Assembly: GCF_900177345.1 (NCBI RefSeq)
Contig: NZ_FWZT01000018.1
Span: 62,001-126,000 of the forward strand
Reading direction: 5' to 3'
Source of the DNA: Pseudobacteriovorax antillogorgiicola
GTDB lineage: Bacteria; Bdellovibrionota_B; Oligoflexia; Oligoflexales; Oligoflexaceae
Length of the DNA stretch: 64,000 bases
In this document: positions 36,778 through 56,246 of the stretch, in pieces
Position numbering within the stretch: position 1 is the stretch's first letter
How the letters are laid out: every line of letters starts with the position of its first letter
Notes under the pieces: model-generated
The model's input: only the letters and a program-made list of their open reading frames with translations
Told to the model about the DNA's origin: nothing
The model's database searches: none
Translations under genes and position numbers: made by a program

Positions 36778-38391
36778 TTAGCGATGGGCGGCCTGCTTTA
36801 CCGGAATTTTATTAAAACTTGCAGCAGTTTTCTTGGGGTCGTCCTGAATCTGAACAGCAATCTTTTTGACTTTTGAAAGCTTAGTTTTCGTAGCCTTAGC
36901 CAGTCTGGTACCATAATCAATATCGGCGGCATAGGCATAGGCTACCATTTGTTCGACTACCTTTTTATTGCGGATTTGATTGAGATCACCAGCGAAATTC
37001 ATGATCAGGTGCTTCTTGTCAAAGTCACTGTAGGAACGATAGAGTTCTCCTGCTTGACGGAAGTTAAGGGTCTTGGCGATCATCTTCTGTTGTGTTTTGC
37101 CATCTAGCCGACTCTGGCTATATCGGTACTCAGTGTTTTCCGCCAGTGTTCCTCTGTCGCGCTTCAGGCTGCCGTCGAAGCTATTGGGCTGATAGTTGAT
37201 ACTCAAATCCCTAGCAACAAGGGTAGCTCCAACACCGTCTTGGTTAAAGGTTCTGATAGGAGTTTTAGCACGATTGACGGGAAGGTACTGATAGTTGACA
37301 CCAAGGCGATACCTTTGAGTGTCTGAATAGGAGAAGAGTCGTCCCTGAAGAAGTCGATCTTCAGACGGTTCAATCCCCGGGACAAAGACGGCTGGCGAGA
37401 AAGCTGACTGCTCGGAGTACTGGAAGAAATTTTCTGGCACTCTATTGAGTGTCATTTTGCCCAAGGTCTTACATGTGACCAGCTTCATCTCGCAGTTCCA
37501 ATCCTTGGTGGCATCGAGGGGATAGAAGTCGAACTTATCGAGGTTCTTTGGGTCCATCAACAAAGCTTGCAGTTCCCAAGACGGAAATTTTTTCTTTTGG
37601 ATCGCCTGATAAAGATCATTGGTATGATGGCTGAAGTCTTTAGCCTGAATAGTAGCAGCTTCTTGAGCAGTCAGGCCCTTGTCTGCTTGCTGGGATAACC
37701 AGCGAAACTTCACGTACTGAACCATTCCGTCTTGGTTTACAAATTTGTAAGCATGCACACCGTTGCCGTCCATGCCGCGGAGAGTTCTAGGAGTACCTTT
37801 ATTCGAAAAGAGATGAGTCCACATATGAATGCTTTCTGGGTGATGTGCCATGAAGTCAAAAATGCGGTTGGGGTCCTGACGATTGGTAACGGGGTCAGAC
37901 TTCAATGAGTGGACCATGTCCGGGAATTTCATAGCATCGCGGATAAAGAATACAGGTAAGTTATTACCAACAAGATCCCAATTGCCTTGATCGGTATAAA
38001 ACTTTACGGCGAAGCCACGAGGATCGCGGAGTGTTTCTGGTGATCCTTTAGAATGAATCACGGAAGAAAATCTGACGAACACCTCTGTTTTCTTGTTTTT
38101 CTTAGCGAGTAAACTAGCTTGGGTTACATCAGAGAAGTCATCATAAGATACAAAGTAACCGTGAGCGCCCACGCCACGGGGGTGGACAACCCTTTCAGGA
38201 ATTCGCTCCCGGTCAAAGCGAGCTAGTTTCTCCAAGAGGTGAGCGTCTTCCAGTAAGGTGCCCCCCGTGGCCCCGGCTGTTTTTGAATTTTGATTGTCGC
38301 CTACGGGGGCCCCGGTCTCACGGGTGAGTGTTTCCGCGAACATGGGGTGGCTGGCCATGGCTATAGCACTAGCAAAGATCATCTTTTTCAT
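36778..38391 (-). CDS. Exported mono-functional haem catalase
   Basis: 537 residues. A cleavable signal peptide (MKKMIFASAIAMASHPMFA) marks it as periplasmic, as in KatB-type catalases. The active site is intact: distal His70 in ERVVHPRGVGAHGYF, Asn in GNNLPVFFIRD (about 143), and the haem-ligand Tyr355 in RLFSYSDTQRYRLG. The length fits small-subunit catalases. AGGAG precedes the ATG. Downstream lies its ankyrin partner. It removes hydrogen peroxide in the periplasm; together with the decayed katG at 54.9 kb this suggests that the function is now carried by this enzyme. It may be under peroxide control (OxyR), but no operator was recognised. Confidence 0.97.
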   Translation of the reverse strand: MKKMIFASAIAMASHPMFAETLTRETGAPVGDNQNSKTAGATGGTLLEDAHLLEKLARFDRERIPERVVHPRGVGAHGYFVSYDDFSDVTQASLLAKKNKKTEVFVRFSSVIHSKGSPETLRDPRGFAVKFYTDQGNWDLVGNNLPVFFIRDAMKFPDMVHSLKSDPVTNRQDPNRIFDFMAHHPESIHMWTHLFSNKGTPRTLRGMDGNGVHAYKFVNQDGMVQYVKFRWLSQQADKGLTAQEAATIQAKDFSHHTNDLYQAIQKKKFPSWELQALLMDPKNLDKFDFYPLDATKDWNCEMKLVTCKTLGKMTLNRVPENFFQYSEQSAFSPAVFVPGIEPSEDRLLQGRLFSYSDTQRYRLGVNYQYLPVNRAKTPIRTFNQDGVGATLVARDLSINYQPNSFDGSLKRDRGTLAENTEYRYSQSRLDGKTQQKMIAKTLNFRQAGELYRSYSDFDKKHLIMNFAGDLNQIRNKKVVEQMVAYAYAADIDYGTRLAKATKTKLSKVKKIAVQIQDDPKKTAASFNKIPVKQAAHR

Positions 38392-47922: not shown

Positions 47923-48873
47923 ATGAGGACGATTGCGCTTATAGCTGCCCTTACGGCAGCAGTTGCGATTCCAGTAGGGTTATCATTGGAGCAAGGGGCT
48001 AAGGAATCAACTATTTTACCCGAGAATTATGAGGCCCTGAATGGTGACGAAAAACTCAATAGACTCTGGCAAGATGGGATCATCGCCAGTGAATACAAAG
48101 CAGGGCTACCAACATTGAAGTCAGTCAGCCCGTTCAAACTTGCGTTTCATATGCTATCCAAAAAAATGGAAAGGCCGATGGATGAAGCCGAGGCGAGCTA
48201 TGATAAACCTATTCATAAGCATGGTGTTGTCGCCAAAGTAGCCTTTGTTGCCACACAAGATAGCCCTTATACAGGGCTTTTCGAGGGGGCTTCCCAGGGT
48301 CTCTTGCGCGTTTCCGTAACAGGTGATCCTGCATCGATGACCTTTGCACCTGGTATCGCACTTAAGTTTTTTCGTGATGGCATGGTATCACAGAATGTTA
48401 GCGCTCTGTACAAGCTCAGTGGCCAAGGTGAGAACCACAATTTCTTTGCTAACGAACTATCGAATGTAATTCCCCTAGAGTTTGATATTGCTTCTATCTT
48501 TTCATCTTTGGTGTTTAAGAGAGTTGCAAAGTATCCCACCCAAATTTCTGTGGATGGTTTCGCTGATTACGACGAGCATGGTGATCAAGTATTCGAACCT
48601 AGGCAGCCAAGGCAGCTGTATTTTAGCCCTGTGGAAGAAATGAGATTTGATGAAACTGCTCATGATTTTCGCCAGGACTTTATGGACATACCTTCAGGTA
48701 CGACCCTATATAGGGTCTATGCTAGTGAAGAAAAAGGCCTCGATACTTCAGAGATAGATTGGGAGAGAAGAAAGAAGGCTTTGTTTATTGGTACTATTGA
48801 AACAAGATCGCGTTTTATCGCGTCTGAATATGGGGATCGACGACTCTTTTTTAAGCATAACAGGATGCTCTAA
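47923..48873 (+). CDS. Exported catalase-like protein (possible fatty-acid hydroperoxide enzyme)
   Basis: 316 residues from ATG 47923 (GGAAGG upstream). N-terminal signal or anchor (MRTIALIAALTAAVAIPVGLSL). It follows the pattern of short catalase-related haem proteins: YDKPIHKHGVVAKVAFVA with His, YTGLFEGASQGLLRVSVTGDPAS, PGIALKFFRDGMVSQN, and the C-terminal ASEYGDRRLFFKHNRM. The classical R-x3-Y haem-ligand motif is not visible, so haem binding is not sure. Relatives include allene oxide synthase and hydroperoxide lyase-type catalase domains that act on fatty-acid hydroperoxides. It lies 491 bases before a cyclooxygenase/alpha-dioxygenase-like gene on the same strand, which makes such a role attractive. 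This is inference. Confidence 0.7.
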   Translation: MRTIALIAALTAAVAIPVGLSLEQGAKESTILPENYEALNGDEKLNRLWQDGIIASEYKAGLPTLKSVSPFKLAFHMLSKKMERPMDEAEASYDKPIHKHGVVAKVAFVATQDSPYTGLFEGASQGLLRVSVTGDPASMTFAPGIALKFFRDGMVSQNVSALYKLSGQGENHNFFANELSNVIPLEFDIASIFSSLVFKRVAKYPTQISVDGFADYDEHGDQVFEPRQPRQLYFSPVEEMRFDETAHDFRQDFMDIPSGTTLYRVYASEEKGLDTSEIDWERRKKALFIGTIETRSRFIASEYGDRRLFFKHNRML

Positions 48874-49364
48874 GCTATTGTGTACTGGGGGTTAATGAGT
48901 ACTGTCATCGACCTGAAAAAGATAGTTCCCCAGTACCGACAGATTTTTAGGCTAAGCAAAGACTCAGATGTGAAAAGAACATATAAAAAATACCACTTGA
49001 TTGTTGTTAGGCAAATAACGTCTTATCAAATGAATTCAAATCGATTCAAAATGTCATTTATCACTTCACGAAAGGGAAATGTCTGGTTTTAAGGTTGTGA
49101 TACTTACAAGGTAACTTTTTTTTCTATGCCTTGTCATTATTGTGAGCAAGCCGTTTATGAAGTATGAATCTTTTGTTAATCGACTCAAAGATCTTAACAA
49201 GCTCATTCAAGACTGTTATACCTTTTCCAACGCCCACTAAACTTCGTCATCACCACATTGCTAAGTTCCTATATGAAGAGTCTTTCCGGGGATAGAAGAC
49301 AGTTAGTCATTGGTGAAAGCGAAATCTTTGTGTCAGTTTTTAACAATTAAGGGAGATTAGTAGG
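48874..49364. other. Intergenic region with an inverted repeat
   Basis: 490 AT-rich bases. Inverted arms GTACTGGGG/CCCCAGTAC (48882-48890 with 48928-48936) follow the stop of the catalase-like gene and could mark the end of its transcript. A 70-codon open frame at 48880-49092 begins inside this hairpin and has no Shine-Dalgarno or recognisable family; I do not call it. The promoter of the dioxygenase-like gene should be near 49270-49360; no -35/-10 pair is clear. Confidence 0.4.
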
Positions 49365-52190
49365 ATGATTGGTAATTCAGTCTGGGTGACTTGGCCAGTT
49401 ATTGGCAAAATGTTTGGTGGTATAGGCTTGATTGTATCCTTAGGAATGCTTGCTGTTGATCGCGAAGAGCTTATGGAGAATAATCTCTACGATCTTGAGT
49501 CAGAAGAATACTACGCAAACTCAATCTCTTGCTCCGATGATGACCTGAAGGCGCGAACATTAGATGGCACTTGTGTCATTCCAGAGAACCCTAAAGAAGG
49601 TTCGATCTACACAAACTTTGGTCGCAACGTTGATCCAAGGGCCAGTGTCACCGAATTAGAATCTGAGCGTCTTCTTGAGCCGAACCCAAGAGAAATCAGT
49701 AACCTTCTCATGGGTCGGGATTCATTTAAGCCAGCAACAAGCCTTAACTTTATTGCAGCAGCCTGGATTCAGTTTATGACTCATGATTGGTTTTCTCATG
49801 GCGTAAATCTTGAGTCCGACCCTATTGAGGTTCCAGTACCCACAAACGATCCAGAGTTTAGCGCTGGGTCCATGATTGAGATTAAGAGAACTCGTCCTGC
49901 AACACTTGTTCAAGATTTTCAAGTTTTCGATGAAGACACAGGGCAAGTCAAGCGTATTCCCCTAGAGAAAGCTCTTCCAGCCTATGAGAACTTAGTGACT
50001 CATTGGTGGGATGGATCCCAGATCTATGGTACAAACTCTGAAGTGAATCAACTGATCAGAACTTTTCAAGGTGGAAAACTCAAGCTCGACGATCAAGGCT
50101 ACTTGCCAACCGGGTCGAATGGAGTCCCTGTGCAGGGGTTTACAGATAACTGGTGGCTAGGATTAAGTATGCTTCATAACCTTTTCGTCAAGGAACATAA
50201 TGCCATTGCTGAAGCTCTTCAGGAAAAGTATCCGCAGATGACTGATCAGCAACTTTATGACAAGTCTCGCCTGATTAATGCTGCTCTTATGACGAAAATT
50301 CATACGGTCGAGTGGACGCCAGCAATCATTGCCAACCCAACAACAATCACAGCAATGTATGCAAACTGGTGGGGGCTACTGGGGAGTCGCGAAGCTAAGG
50401 AAGCCTATCGTGAATTGATCAAAAAATGGTTGGAAGCAGCATCGAATGCTGATGGATTTTTCCAACGAATCTTAAGAACGAATCCAGAGATGGCCGGTGT
50501 TGCAGATTTATTCAAAAATGCAGCGTCGTTGGACTATGTTATAGGGGGGCTAGCAGGTGCTACGGAAGCAAATAACTACGGTGTTCCCTATACCTTAACG
50601 GAAGAATTCGTTCAGGTTTATCGCATGCACCCCTTGATGCGGGATTCCATAGATGTTTATGACTTTGAATCTGGAAGTCTAAAGGATTCAGTATCACTAG
50701 AAGATACTACCTTTGGTGACGGTGAGGAGATGTTCCGCTCATCAAGACAGGCAGATCTTTGGTTCGGGTTCGGCATAACAAACCCTGGTGCACTAACCTT
50801 AAAAAACTACCCCAACGTCTTAAGAAATATCGAAATTCCATTTCGAGGGCCGTTGGATCTTGCAACCATCGACATTGTTCGAGATCGGGAGCGTGGCATT
50901 CCTCGATACAACGAATTCAGGCGTCAAATTGGTTTAACGCCCATTTCAAACTTCGAACAACTGTTCGAAGGGGCTGATATGAGTTTAGCTGAAAATCAGC
51001 AGCTACTAAAAGATATGAAGCGGGTCTACAAGAATGATGTTGAGCTGATTGATGCTTTTGTTGGAGAAATGGCCGAATCCGTAAGACCAGAAGGATTTGG
51101 CTTCTCTGAAACAGCCTTCCAGATCTTTATTATGAATGCTAGTCGCCGAATCCTTACTGATCGATTCTATACGTCCGACTATAATGCTGACACATACACA
51201 GAGCTTGGTATGGATTGGGTCGAAGGCACGACGATGGTTGATATTCTAAAACGTCACTATCCTGAACTCGCATCGCGAATGAACAGCACGGACAACGCGT
51301 TCAAACCATGGTCGCAACCCAGCCCTGAAACCTGTGATCTTGCTGTTGAAGAAATGGATGGAAAAGCGATTTGGGGTCATGTTGAATCCGATGGCCGTAG
51401 TCGTGAGGTGGTGACCCTATTCAATCGAATTGGCGAAGTTGAAAGTTTCTATGCAATTACTGCAGAGTATCTCGATCCTTTTGAGGAAGATAATTTTGTT
51501 TCCAAGTTCTTGCGACCAGGAAAGAGAAACTTGATCACAGGAGAGATGAATGGTTACTTACAGGAACTGTTTCATTGGATCACCATTCGAAAAATCGAGC
51601 GTGTCCCTGGTAGCAGTGAATTTTCCGTGTATCCTGTAACCGTTCAAAATGGTCGCATTATCAGTGCTAGCAATCCAAGCAAGGAGCGCTTCCAACTTGG
51701 CTGTTCTGAAAATCTTGCGATTGGGACTGAGCAGGTGATAGAGATCAACGGGTCCCAAAAGTTAGTCTCGTATTCAGATCTTGAACGCAATGCACCGTTT
51801 AGCCCCCTAAGTACCACATGGGAATATGACTATGCTCCCGGGCCGTTTAATCCAGGTTACCAGCAAGGAGATAAGATTATTCTAGACATTGAAGATCGTT
51901 TTGGGCCCAATCGAGGTCGTACCACGGCTCGATTTAATGTAGACGAGCTAAAGGGCCAAGATCTCGTTGTTCAAGGAGCTTTCACAATGGATGAAGCTCA
52001 CAGAGGCCTATATACATTCACAAGGAATGAAAGTTCTGCTACGATTGGGGCTGAGAAAGTTGAAGACAAGGTAGGAGTCTTCTTAGATGTCTACAACGCC
52101 CAGCCGATCTTCGGCACAGTCGAACTTATACTCATTGACCCATCGAATCCAATTGGGTCGCAGATGTATTTCGAAGAATACGGTAATTAA
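49365..52190 (+). CDS. Animal-haem-peroxidase/cyclooxygenase-like dioxygenase
   Basis: 941 residues with an N-terminal hydrophobic anchor (about residues 8-30). It belongs to the animal haem peroxidase superfamily: distal His140 in QFMTHDWFSHG; HWWDGSQIYG near 212; FVKEHNAIAEAL near 275; HTVEWTPA near 308; and VYRMHPLMRD with Tyr419 and His422. That last motif matches the Y-x-x-H of cyclooxygenase (Tyr385/His388), fungal linoleate diol synthase and plant alpha-dioxygenase, where the Tyr makes the radical that attacks the fatty acid. Peroxidases without dioxygenase activity lack the Tyr. So a fatty-acid dioxygenase is likely. The C-terminal 250 residues are unrecognised beta-rich sequence. A metallo-beta-lactamase-fold gene overlaps the 3' end. 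Confidence 0.88.
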   Translation: MIGNSVWVTWPVIGKMFGGIGLIVSLGMLAVDREELMENNLYDLESEEYYANSISCSDDDLKARTLDGTCVIPENPKEGSIYTNFGRNVDPRASVTELESERLLEPNPREISNLLMGRDSFKPATSLNFIAAAWIQFMTHDWFSHGVNLESDPIEVPVPTNDPEFSAGSMIEIKRTRPATLVQDFQVFDEDTGQVKRIPLEKALPAYENLVTHWWDGSQIYGTNSEVNQLIRTFQGGKLKLDDQGYLPTGSNGVPVQGFTDNWWLGLSMLHNLFVKEHNAIAEALQEKYPQMTDQQLYDKSRLINAALMTKIHTVEWTPAIIANPTTITAMYANWWGLLGSREAKEAYRELIKKWLEAASNADGFFQRILRTNPEMAGVADLFKNAASLDYVIGGLAGATEANNYGVPYTLTEEFVQVYRMHPLMRDSIDVYDFESGSLKDSVSLEDTTFGDGEEMFRSSRQADLWFGFGITNPGALTLKNYPNVLRNIEIPFRGPLDLATIDIVRDRERGIPRYNEFRRQIGLTPISNFEQLFEGADMSLAENQQLLKDMKRVYKNDVELIDAFVGEMAESVRPEGFGFSETAFQIFIMNASRRILTDRFYTSDYNADTYTELGMDWVEGTTMVDILKRHYPELASRMNSTDNAFKPWSQPSPETCDLAVEEMDGKAIWGHVESDGRSREVVTLFNRIGEVESFYAITAEYLDPFEEDNFVSKFLRPGKRNLITGEMNGYLQELFHWITIRKIERVPGSSEFSVYPVTVQNGRIISASNPSKERFQLGCSENLAIGTEQVIEINGSQKLVSYSDLERNAPFSPLSTTWEYDYAPGPFNPGYQQGDKIILDIEDRFGPNRGRTTARFNVDELKGQDLVVQGAFTMDEAHRGLYTFTRNESSATIGAEKVEDKVGVFLDVYNAQPIFGTVELILIDPSNPIGSQMYFEEYGN

Positions 52191-53100
52191 GCTAGTCAAG
52201 ACCATAAGTGTAGCTGCGGTGGCAGCTACACTTCTTACAACTGTTTCTAATGCCTCACAAGCAATGAAGATCCATTGGTTTGGAACCAGCAATATCGTCA
52301 TCGATGATGGTGAGAATGCCATTGCGTTTGATCCATTTTTTTCCCGCCCAGGCCTGTGGGACTTATTCTCTCTGTCAACATTAAAGCCAGATCCTGAGGT
52401 TATTGAACATTGGTTGAGTAAAAGCCCGATATCGAAAATCAAAGGAGTCTTCGTGAGCCATAGTCACTACGATCATATTCTAGATCTGGTGCCGTTAGCA
52501 AAGAAGTTCAGCAGCCAGGTATTTGTCGATGACAATGGTCGAACGATTGCAATGTTTCAGGGCTATCAAGAGAATCTAATCAAGATTCAGAAAGTCAACG
52601 AGATCTATTCAGTTGGAAAATTTTCGGTCGAAGTTCTTAGGTCTGGCCATGCACCCCACCTTTGGGGCAAGGTTTTCATGTCAGGGAAGATCAAGAGTCC
52701 GTTTCCCCGCGAGGCTAGCTTCTTAGACTATAAGAACCAAGACTGCTTCTCGTACCTCATTCGCCATCCTCAACTGACAATTTTGTTTGCACCTTCTAGC
52801 TTCGAGGATGTTGAGCGCAAAAACGTAACAGTTGATCTGATCATTCAAGGTATAGCGGCCCGAAAAAGCTCTGAGTCTTTACTGAAGAACTTAGTTATTC
52901 CCTACCGACCCAAAGCTGTGATGCCAGTGCATCACGACAATTTTTTTAGGAGGCTTGACGCTGGGCAAGAGGTACCTTCGGGAGTCGCTCTGGATGAATT
53001 TATTCAAACAACGAAGCAGCTTGCCCCTGAAGTCGTAGTCATACAACCACAGTATGGCAAACCAATTGAGATCGGAGCCCTGAATAAGCTTCGCCACTAA
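52087..53100 (+). CDS. Exported metallo-beta-lactamase-fold hydrolase
   Basis: Up to 337 residues. The start is uncertain: ATG 52087 has AGGAG nine bases upstream but overlaps the previous gene by 104 bases; a TTG at 52153 gives a shorter protein with a better signal peptide (IKLVKTISVAAVAATLLTTVSNA). The core begins MKIHWFGTSNIVIDD; the metal motif is HSHYDH with a downstream LRSGHAPH and PVHHDNFF supplying further ligands. This is the UlaG/NAPE-PLD-like branch, which hydrolyses phosphoesters, lactones or lipids rather than beta-lactams. Translational coupling to the dioxygenase suggests that it acts on the same substrate or product. It is convergent with the next gene, 25 bases away. Confidence 0.82.
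   Translation: MSTTPSRSSAQSNLYSLTHRIQLGRRCISKNTVIKLVKTISVAAVAATLLTTVSNASQAMKIHWFGTSNIVIDDGENAIAFDPFFSRPGLWDLFSLSTLKPDPEVIEHWLSKSPISKIKGVFVSHSHYDHILDLVPLAKKFSSQVFVDDNGRTIAMFQGYQENLIKIQKVNEIYSVGKFSVEVLRSGHAPHLWGKVFMSGKIKSPFPREASFLDYKNQDCFSYLIRHPQLTILFAPSSFEDVERKNVTVDLIIQGIAARKSSESLLKNLVIPYRPKAVMPVHHDNFFRRLDAGQEVPSGVALDEFIQTTKQLAPEVVVIQPQYGKPIEIGALNKLRH

Positions 53101-54826: not shown

Positions 54827-56246
<1,420 letters not shown>

Follow-up and report, generated by a model that had tools for sequence, protein, structure and literature searches.

The window analysed here, a 64,000-nucleotide stretch of Pseudobacteriovorax antillogorgiicola DNA, contains three consecutive plus-strand genes that a preliminary description read as a secreted oxylipin pathway, made up of an exported catalase-like protein, a cyclooxygenase-like haem enzyme and a metallo-hydrolase. 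The locus raises the question of which fatty-acid oxidation the haem enzyme would carry out, and whether its two neighbours take part in it. Alpha-dioxygenases (alpha-DOXs) are familiar from plants, and fragrance aldehydes are made with a few of the cyanobacterial enzymes; we know of no account of the fate of their unstable hydroperoxide in bacteria. We consider it probable that ORF2 is a membrane-associated fatty-acid alpha-dioxygenase and that ORF1, which is catalase-like, works with it on the peroxide side. All three open reading frames are found where they had been placed, in a genome available as a 7.3 Mb draft that looks Bdellovibrionota-like by gene content and by its closest homologues, from Bacteriovoracales, and the locus is laid out as follows.

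47923 to 48873, plus strand: ORF1 (CATL), 316 residues, with a signal-peptide-like N-terminus, a putative distant relative of the catalase superfamily.
48882 to 48946, plus strand: G+C-rich hairpin with a long loop, then U5, a possible terminator in the ORF1-ORF2 gap (weak; z-score of the region -0.9).
49365 to 52190, plus strand: ORF2 as a whole, predicted alpha-dioxygenase with an extra C-terminal domain.
49365 to 51317, plus strand: predicted alpha-dioxygenase domain of ORF2 (PF03098), with a hydrophobic N-terminal segment as in membrane-associated alpha-DOXs.
51318 to 52190, plus strand: DOX_C, the extra domain of ORF2, its last 290 residues (~651-941), without a family match.
52186 to 53100 (probable; 52087 to 53100 in the ATG-based call), plus strand: ORF3, metallo-beta-lactamase fold, probably exported.

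The list of open reading frames offers two starts for ORF1, 47857 and 47923. The ATG at 47923 is preceded by GGAAGG, and the signal-peptide-like N-terminus begins there. ORF1 and ORF2 are spaced by 491 bases, and this distance, together with the hairpin and U5 on the 3′ side of ORF1, suggests that the two genes may have separate transcripts. The overlap between ORF2 and ORF3 is probably less extensive than first described: its 104 bases depend on taking ATG 52087 as the start of ORF3. A signal-peptide-like stretch starts just past the ORF2 stop, in frame with ATT 52186, and the homologue of ORF3 in a related genome (G001) begins directly with a signal peptide. The real overlap is therefore likely to be a few bases, and the long one is probably a start-codon artefact. 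The window also contains a full-length exported catalase (36778-38391, minus strand; PF00199, 541 bits) about 10 kb from ORF1. At 54869-56246 there are the remains of an exported catalase-peroxidase gene of the KatG type, read from pieces, the first of which matches PF00141; its N- and C-terminal parts are in different frames and fall far short of full length.

ORF2 has a single Pfam domain, animal haem peroxidase (PF03098, E 2.4e-101, residues 64-636), in agreement with its earlier description as an animal-type haem enzyme. Its best matches in the PDB are the plant alpha-dioxygenases 4kvj and 4hhr (E 1e-99 to 1e-104; 4kvj at 2.3e-104), whereas cyclooxygenase (COX) structures mostly match at ~1e-6 to 1e-8 over stretches of ~50-130 residues in the PDB sequence search. 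We therefore reject the cyclooxygenase identity on sequence in favour of an alpha-dioxygenase. The active site of rice alpha-DOX (OsaDOX) comprises distal H157, proximal H382, radical Y379, the carboxylate residues H311 and R559, and the C2-positioning T316 (PMC8720084). All six are kept in ORF2, including the Tyr and His of the VYRMHP motif noted previously:

49782 to 49784, plus strand: codon of distal His140, equivalent to rice H157.
50301 to 50303, plus strand: codon of carboxylate residue His313, equivalent to H311.
50316 to 50318, plus strand: codon of C2-positioning Thr318, equivalent to T316.
50619 to 50621, plus strand: codon of radical Tyr419 in VYRMHP, equivalent to Y379.
50628 to 50630, plus strand: codon of proximal His422 in VYRMHP, equivalent to H382.
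51147 to 51149, plus strand: codon of carboxylate residue Arg595, equivalent to R559.

All 82 aligned DOX homologues keep equivalents of His313, Thr318, Tyr419, His422 and Arg595; for the distal His the figure is 80, with gaps in the other two. By family and active-site residues, ORF2 is a fatty-acid alpha-dioxygenase, with its activity predicted. Its N-terminus is hydrophobic and of the membrane type, with no clear signal peptide, so it lends no support to the word "secreted" for the dioxygenase. The same genome encodes a second PF03098 protein (C13), which we considered as a further dioxygenase and rejected: it carries FRFGH, with Phe in place of Tyr, and matches lactoperoxidase and peroxinectin. 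By sequence it is a true peroxidase of the lactoperoxidase type and an internal contrast to ORF2. In its own locus (L154 3166-4842 and 5312-6547), this exported lactoperoxidase-like haem peroxidase is encoded next to a cytochrome P450, with both genes on one strand.

The extra domain DOX_C exists as a separate, signal-peptide-bearing protein beside DOX and CATL in two Bacteriovoracales loci (L051, L052). Outside ORF2 it was found only there, with none in the remaining 57 genomes sampled from the phylum and none on plasmids. Its structure model, built from only three sequences, has a pLDDT of 50, too low for use.

To place the locus in context, we compared the closest 79 of 239 DOX loci, many of which are related to one another. 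A catalase-type domain lies on the same strand within 1 kb of DOX in 62 of these 79, and just five other matches occur in 1.29 Mb. Because many of the loci are related, the independent pairings are fewer, amounting to about four architectures. Of the 54 related loci with both DOX and CATL, 52 encode them as one uninterrupted reading frame, DOX first and CATL second, mostly of ~920-980 residues. The fusions are found mostly in gammaproteobacteria (Pseudomonas, Oceanospirillales, Moraxellaceae, Alcanivoracaceae and others) and do not represent 52 independent events, since they mostly form one clade. They are ~51-58% identical to ORF2 and 40-50% to ORF1, and in the DOX tree ORF2 is sister to the fusion clade (support 100/99). 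In L051 and L052, DOX, CATL and DOX_C are three adjacent genes. Fusions of a Pfam-confirmed catalase to alpha-DOX, with the catalase N-terminal, occur in Calothrix NIES-4105 and Rhizobium phaseoli; in Calothrix PCC 7103 an N-terminal catalase-related fusion is recognised by profile, and in six further loci (Halomonas, Alteromonas and relatives) a separate catalase-related gene lies just downstream. Within the host's own order the two parts are only loosely tied, which counts against a working pair: CATL is present in 16 of 56 genomes and DOX in 2 of 56, and G001 has two DOXs and zero CATL. Judged from these sequence comparisons, the pairing of DOX with a catalase-type partner is beyond chance and conserved well outside the host genome. 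Since the same two parts are fused in many Pseudomonas-type bacteria, ORF1 and ORF2 very likely work together.

Some DOX loci have further neighbours. A large regulator of the MalT/LuxR type, a candidate regulator, lies beside the fusion gene in 36 related loci (for example L038 4947-7586, minus strand). In Halomonadaceae, a few kb upstream of DOX, there is a gene for a long protein that ends in a catalase-related domain (L072 3186-5819, minus strand; also L078, L079 and L082); its N-terminal part belongs to no recognised family, with a weak DyP-peroxidase hint in L072. Alphaproteobacterial plasmid alpha-DOX genes (L150 4903-9400, L152) are beside or near a cytochrome c gene, and the one on the Qingshengfaniella plasmid also has an FAD-binding protein and an alpha/beta hydrolase nearby.

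One plasmid cluster connects the pairing with an assayed enzyme:

L148 2743 to 10667, all on the same strand: Calothrix PCC 6303 plasmid cluster with alpha-DOX, CATL, GMC oxidoreductase and patatin-like phospholipase.

The gene order is alpha-DOX, a small ORF, a transposase, CATL (44% identical to ORF1), GMC oxidoreductase and patatin-like phospholipase. The alpha-DOX agrees with the assayed CalDOX at 16 of 16 published residue positions, and this agreement suggests that CalDOX very probably comes from this plasmid cluster; compared at the published residue numbers, the two proteins are very probably the same or near-identical. CalDOX converts C10-C14 acids to fatty aldehydes, and we regard the cluster as a candidate lipid alpha-oxidation cluster. 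Its phospholipase and GMC oxidoreductase, neither of which is seen at the locus in the window, suggest lipid release before the reaction and aldehyde or alcohol oxidation after it.

The metallo-hydrolase is a different case. The fold of ORF3 is that of metallo-beta-lactamases (PF12706, 28.8 bits against a cut-off of 27), with SHSHYDHI (HxHxDH) in its translation, so this part of the earlier assignment stands; the proposed tie to NAPE-PLD finds no PDB match at E 0.01. As a conserved partner, a metallo-beta-lactamase protein was rejected: none is matched in the closest 79 of 239 DOX loci, and the one strong relative of ORF3 in 55 related genomes, in G001, is unlinked to DOX. No locus in this set unites all three families, and ORF3 itself is probably a hydrolase with no tie, or a loose one, to the other two.

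The relation of ORF1 to catalases is more distant than "exported catalase-like" implies, although the signal-peptide-like start is there. Searches of Pfam, NCBIfam and PDB sequences gave no worthwhile match. An AlphaFold2 model from 36 sequences (pLDDT 87, pTM 0.89) has two significant Foldseek matches in the PDB, 3e4y and 3e4w (prob 0.99, E 4e-4), with a TM of just 0.37, 14-15% identity and no detectable sequence relation. With a more diverse sequence set, the CATL profile matches the catalase-related family (p 2.3e-5, probability 76%); its match to catalase itself is not significant with the first set (p 0.41) and weak with the more diverse one (p 0.003). In the profile alignment with catalase, KPIH98 of ORF1 lies opposite the distal motif RVVH. 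Two histidines stand out:

48214 to 48216, plus strand: codon of His98 in KPIHxxG, invariant in 54 rows of the alignment.
48856 to 48858, plus strand: codon of His312 in FFxH, near-invariant.

The basic residue at -3 of the distal-type His98 (K95 in K95-P-I-H98) is as in catalases. The C-terminal RxxxY with the axial Tyr, which 26-27 of the 27 catalase-related partners of DOX elsewhere possess, was not found conserved in the CATL alignment, where the protein ends with FFxH directly after the barrel. For this reason CATL may not bind haem, and we do not class ORF1 as a catalase-related haem enzyme. The model and profile give moderate support for ORF1 as a distant relative of the catalase superfamily, which fills the place of a catalase-related protein beside the dioxygenase, with putative haem use. 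ORF1 is 41-46% identical to the fused and Calothrix CATLs versus 19-36% to most stand-alone CATLs, but its closest relative is a stand-alone copy in a related genome (G006, 52%). Longer CATL relatives of ~520-560 residues (L103, L105, L106, L107, L109, L113), mostly lipoprotein-like or exported and without a Pfam family, occur in relatives of the host, mostly without any DOX.

Under the reading we prefer, peroxide would oxidise the ORF2 haem and generate a radical on Tyr419, which would abstract hydrogen at C2 from a free fatty acid anchored by His313, Thr318 and Arg595. Addition of O2 would give a 2-hydroperoxy fatty acid, and loss of CO2 the one-carbon-shorter (Cn-1) aldehyde. We take this alpha-dioxygenase reaction from assayed relatives (PMC8720084, PMC9305512); the review literature treats the breakdown of the 2-hydroperoxide to the aldehyde as spontaneous (PMC9305512). 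ORF1 would most likely convert or degrade the 2-hydroperoxy acid, or keep peroxide at a level that activates the dioxygenase without damaging it, a role suggested by its pairing with ORF2 and by analogy with the Nostoc and coral enzymes. More tentatively, the two proteins may belong to a widespread bacterial two-part alpha-oxidation module, an alpha-DOX with a fused or adjacent catalase-fold partner, in which CATL would be a new type of hydroperoxide-handling domain, its axial Tyr perhaps replaced by His312 or its haem dispensed with, steering the fate of the 2-hydroperoxy acid.

The strongest competing explanation, which we think unlikely yet serious, is that ORF1 is haem-free and uses its catalase-fold beta-barrel as a carrier of fatty acids or hydroperoxides or as a structural subunit of the dioxygenase. 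The missing axial-Tyr motif and Pfam catalase match are consistent with this, and lipocalin-type barrels appear among the non-significant fold matches of the model, but the invariant distal-type His with its catalase-like basic residue speaks against it, as do the true catalase-related domains with RxxxY that occupy the same position beside DOX elsewhere. We are slightly more doubtful that ORF1 only tunes or protects from H2O2, leaving the fatty hydroperoxide untouched. Alpha-DOXs depend on peroxide for activation but suffer damage when it is in excess, hydrogen peroxide activates alpha-DOX (by the title of Zhu 2013, listed in PMC13049297), and catalase-type partners recur beside DOX; however, a true catalase is already encoded in the genome, at 36778-38391, and coral cAOS, itself catalase-related, is unable to scavenge H2O2 and has fatty hydroperoxides as its substrates (PMC5617202).

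We find improbable the earlier view of the locus, in which unsaturated fatty acids are turned into secreted oxylipins that serve as signals or weapons. The dioxygenase would then be COX-like or of the 10S type, its partner a hydroperoxide lyase with haem or an allene oxide synthase, and the third enzyme a hydrolase of lipids. In favour of this view, the Tyr/His motif is shared, the Nostoc 10S-dioxygenase is known with a catalase-related hydroperoxide lyase (PMC13049297), and the patatin phospholipase of the Calothrix cluster provides a link to lipid release. Against this, ORF2 follows the alpha-dioxygenases, enzymes that oxidise C2, in sequence and in its carboxylate-anchoring residues, the COX match is far weaker, ORF1 is without the axial-Tyr motif, and ORF3 is not conserved. 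That the three genes are unrelated same-strand neighbours is very improbable, given that the first two families are fused or adjacent in many genomes and several architectures and that ORF2 is sister to the fusion clade, despite the 491-base gap, the possible terminator, the unlinked ORF3 of G001 and its DOXs without CATL; a chance neighbourhood is still likely in the case of ORF3 alone.

Neither alpha-DOXs in bacteria nor dioxygenases with a catalase-type partner are new. A text search of the open-access literature, which is weak evidence, returned no pairing of an alpha-dioxygenase with a catalase domain or catalase-like protein, unrelated coral proteomics aside, and within that literature this version appears to be undescribed. 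With the partner fused to DOX across relatives of Pseudomonas and clustered with a very probable CalDOX, a second enzymatic step is open to direct test, on DOX and CATL proteins that should express easily.

Several known systems resemble the pair in part. Nostoc punctiforme has a 10S-dioxygenase and a catalase-related 10S-hydroperoxide lyase (Brash 2014, as described in PMC13049297), likewise a fatty-acid dioxygenase of the COX superfamily with a catalase-type partner from its own gene; the earlier statement that no such operon is described therefore holds for the exact trio, but not for a COX-like dioxygenase with a catalase-related partner. The Nostoc dioxygenase is closer to COX and oxidises C10, whereas ORF2 is of the alpha-DOX type. 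The partners differ too, a catalase-related lyase in Nostoc and, here, ORF1 without the axial-Tyr motif. Coral AOS-LOX and HPL-LOX and the cyanobacterial catalase-lipoxygenase also fuse a catalase-type domain to a fatty-acid dioxygenase, but this is a non-haem lipoxygenase with another regiochemistry; PMC11719350 mentions cyanobacterial fusions of catalase to a haem dioxygenase and to LOX. The one significant fold match of the model for ORF1 is to the 33 kDa catalase-related protein of Mycobacterium avium subsp. paratuberculosis (3e4w/3e4y), though at the low identity and TM given above. The closest systems are the alpha-DOXs themselves (plant PIOX/alpha-DOX 4kvj and 4hhr, CalDOX, LepDOX). Unlike them, ORF2 has a 290-residue extra C-terminal domain and a predicted activity, but it shares the same domain over ~590 residues and all of the haem, radical and carboxylate residues, and the CalDOX gene is very probably clustered with a CATL homologue, as ORF2 is with ORF1.
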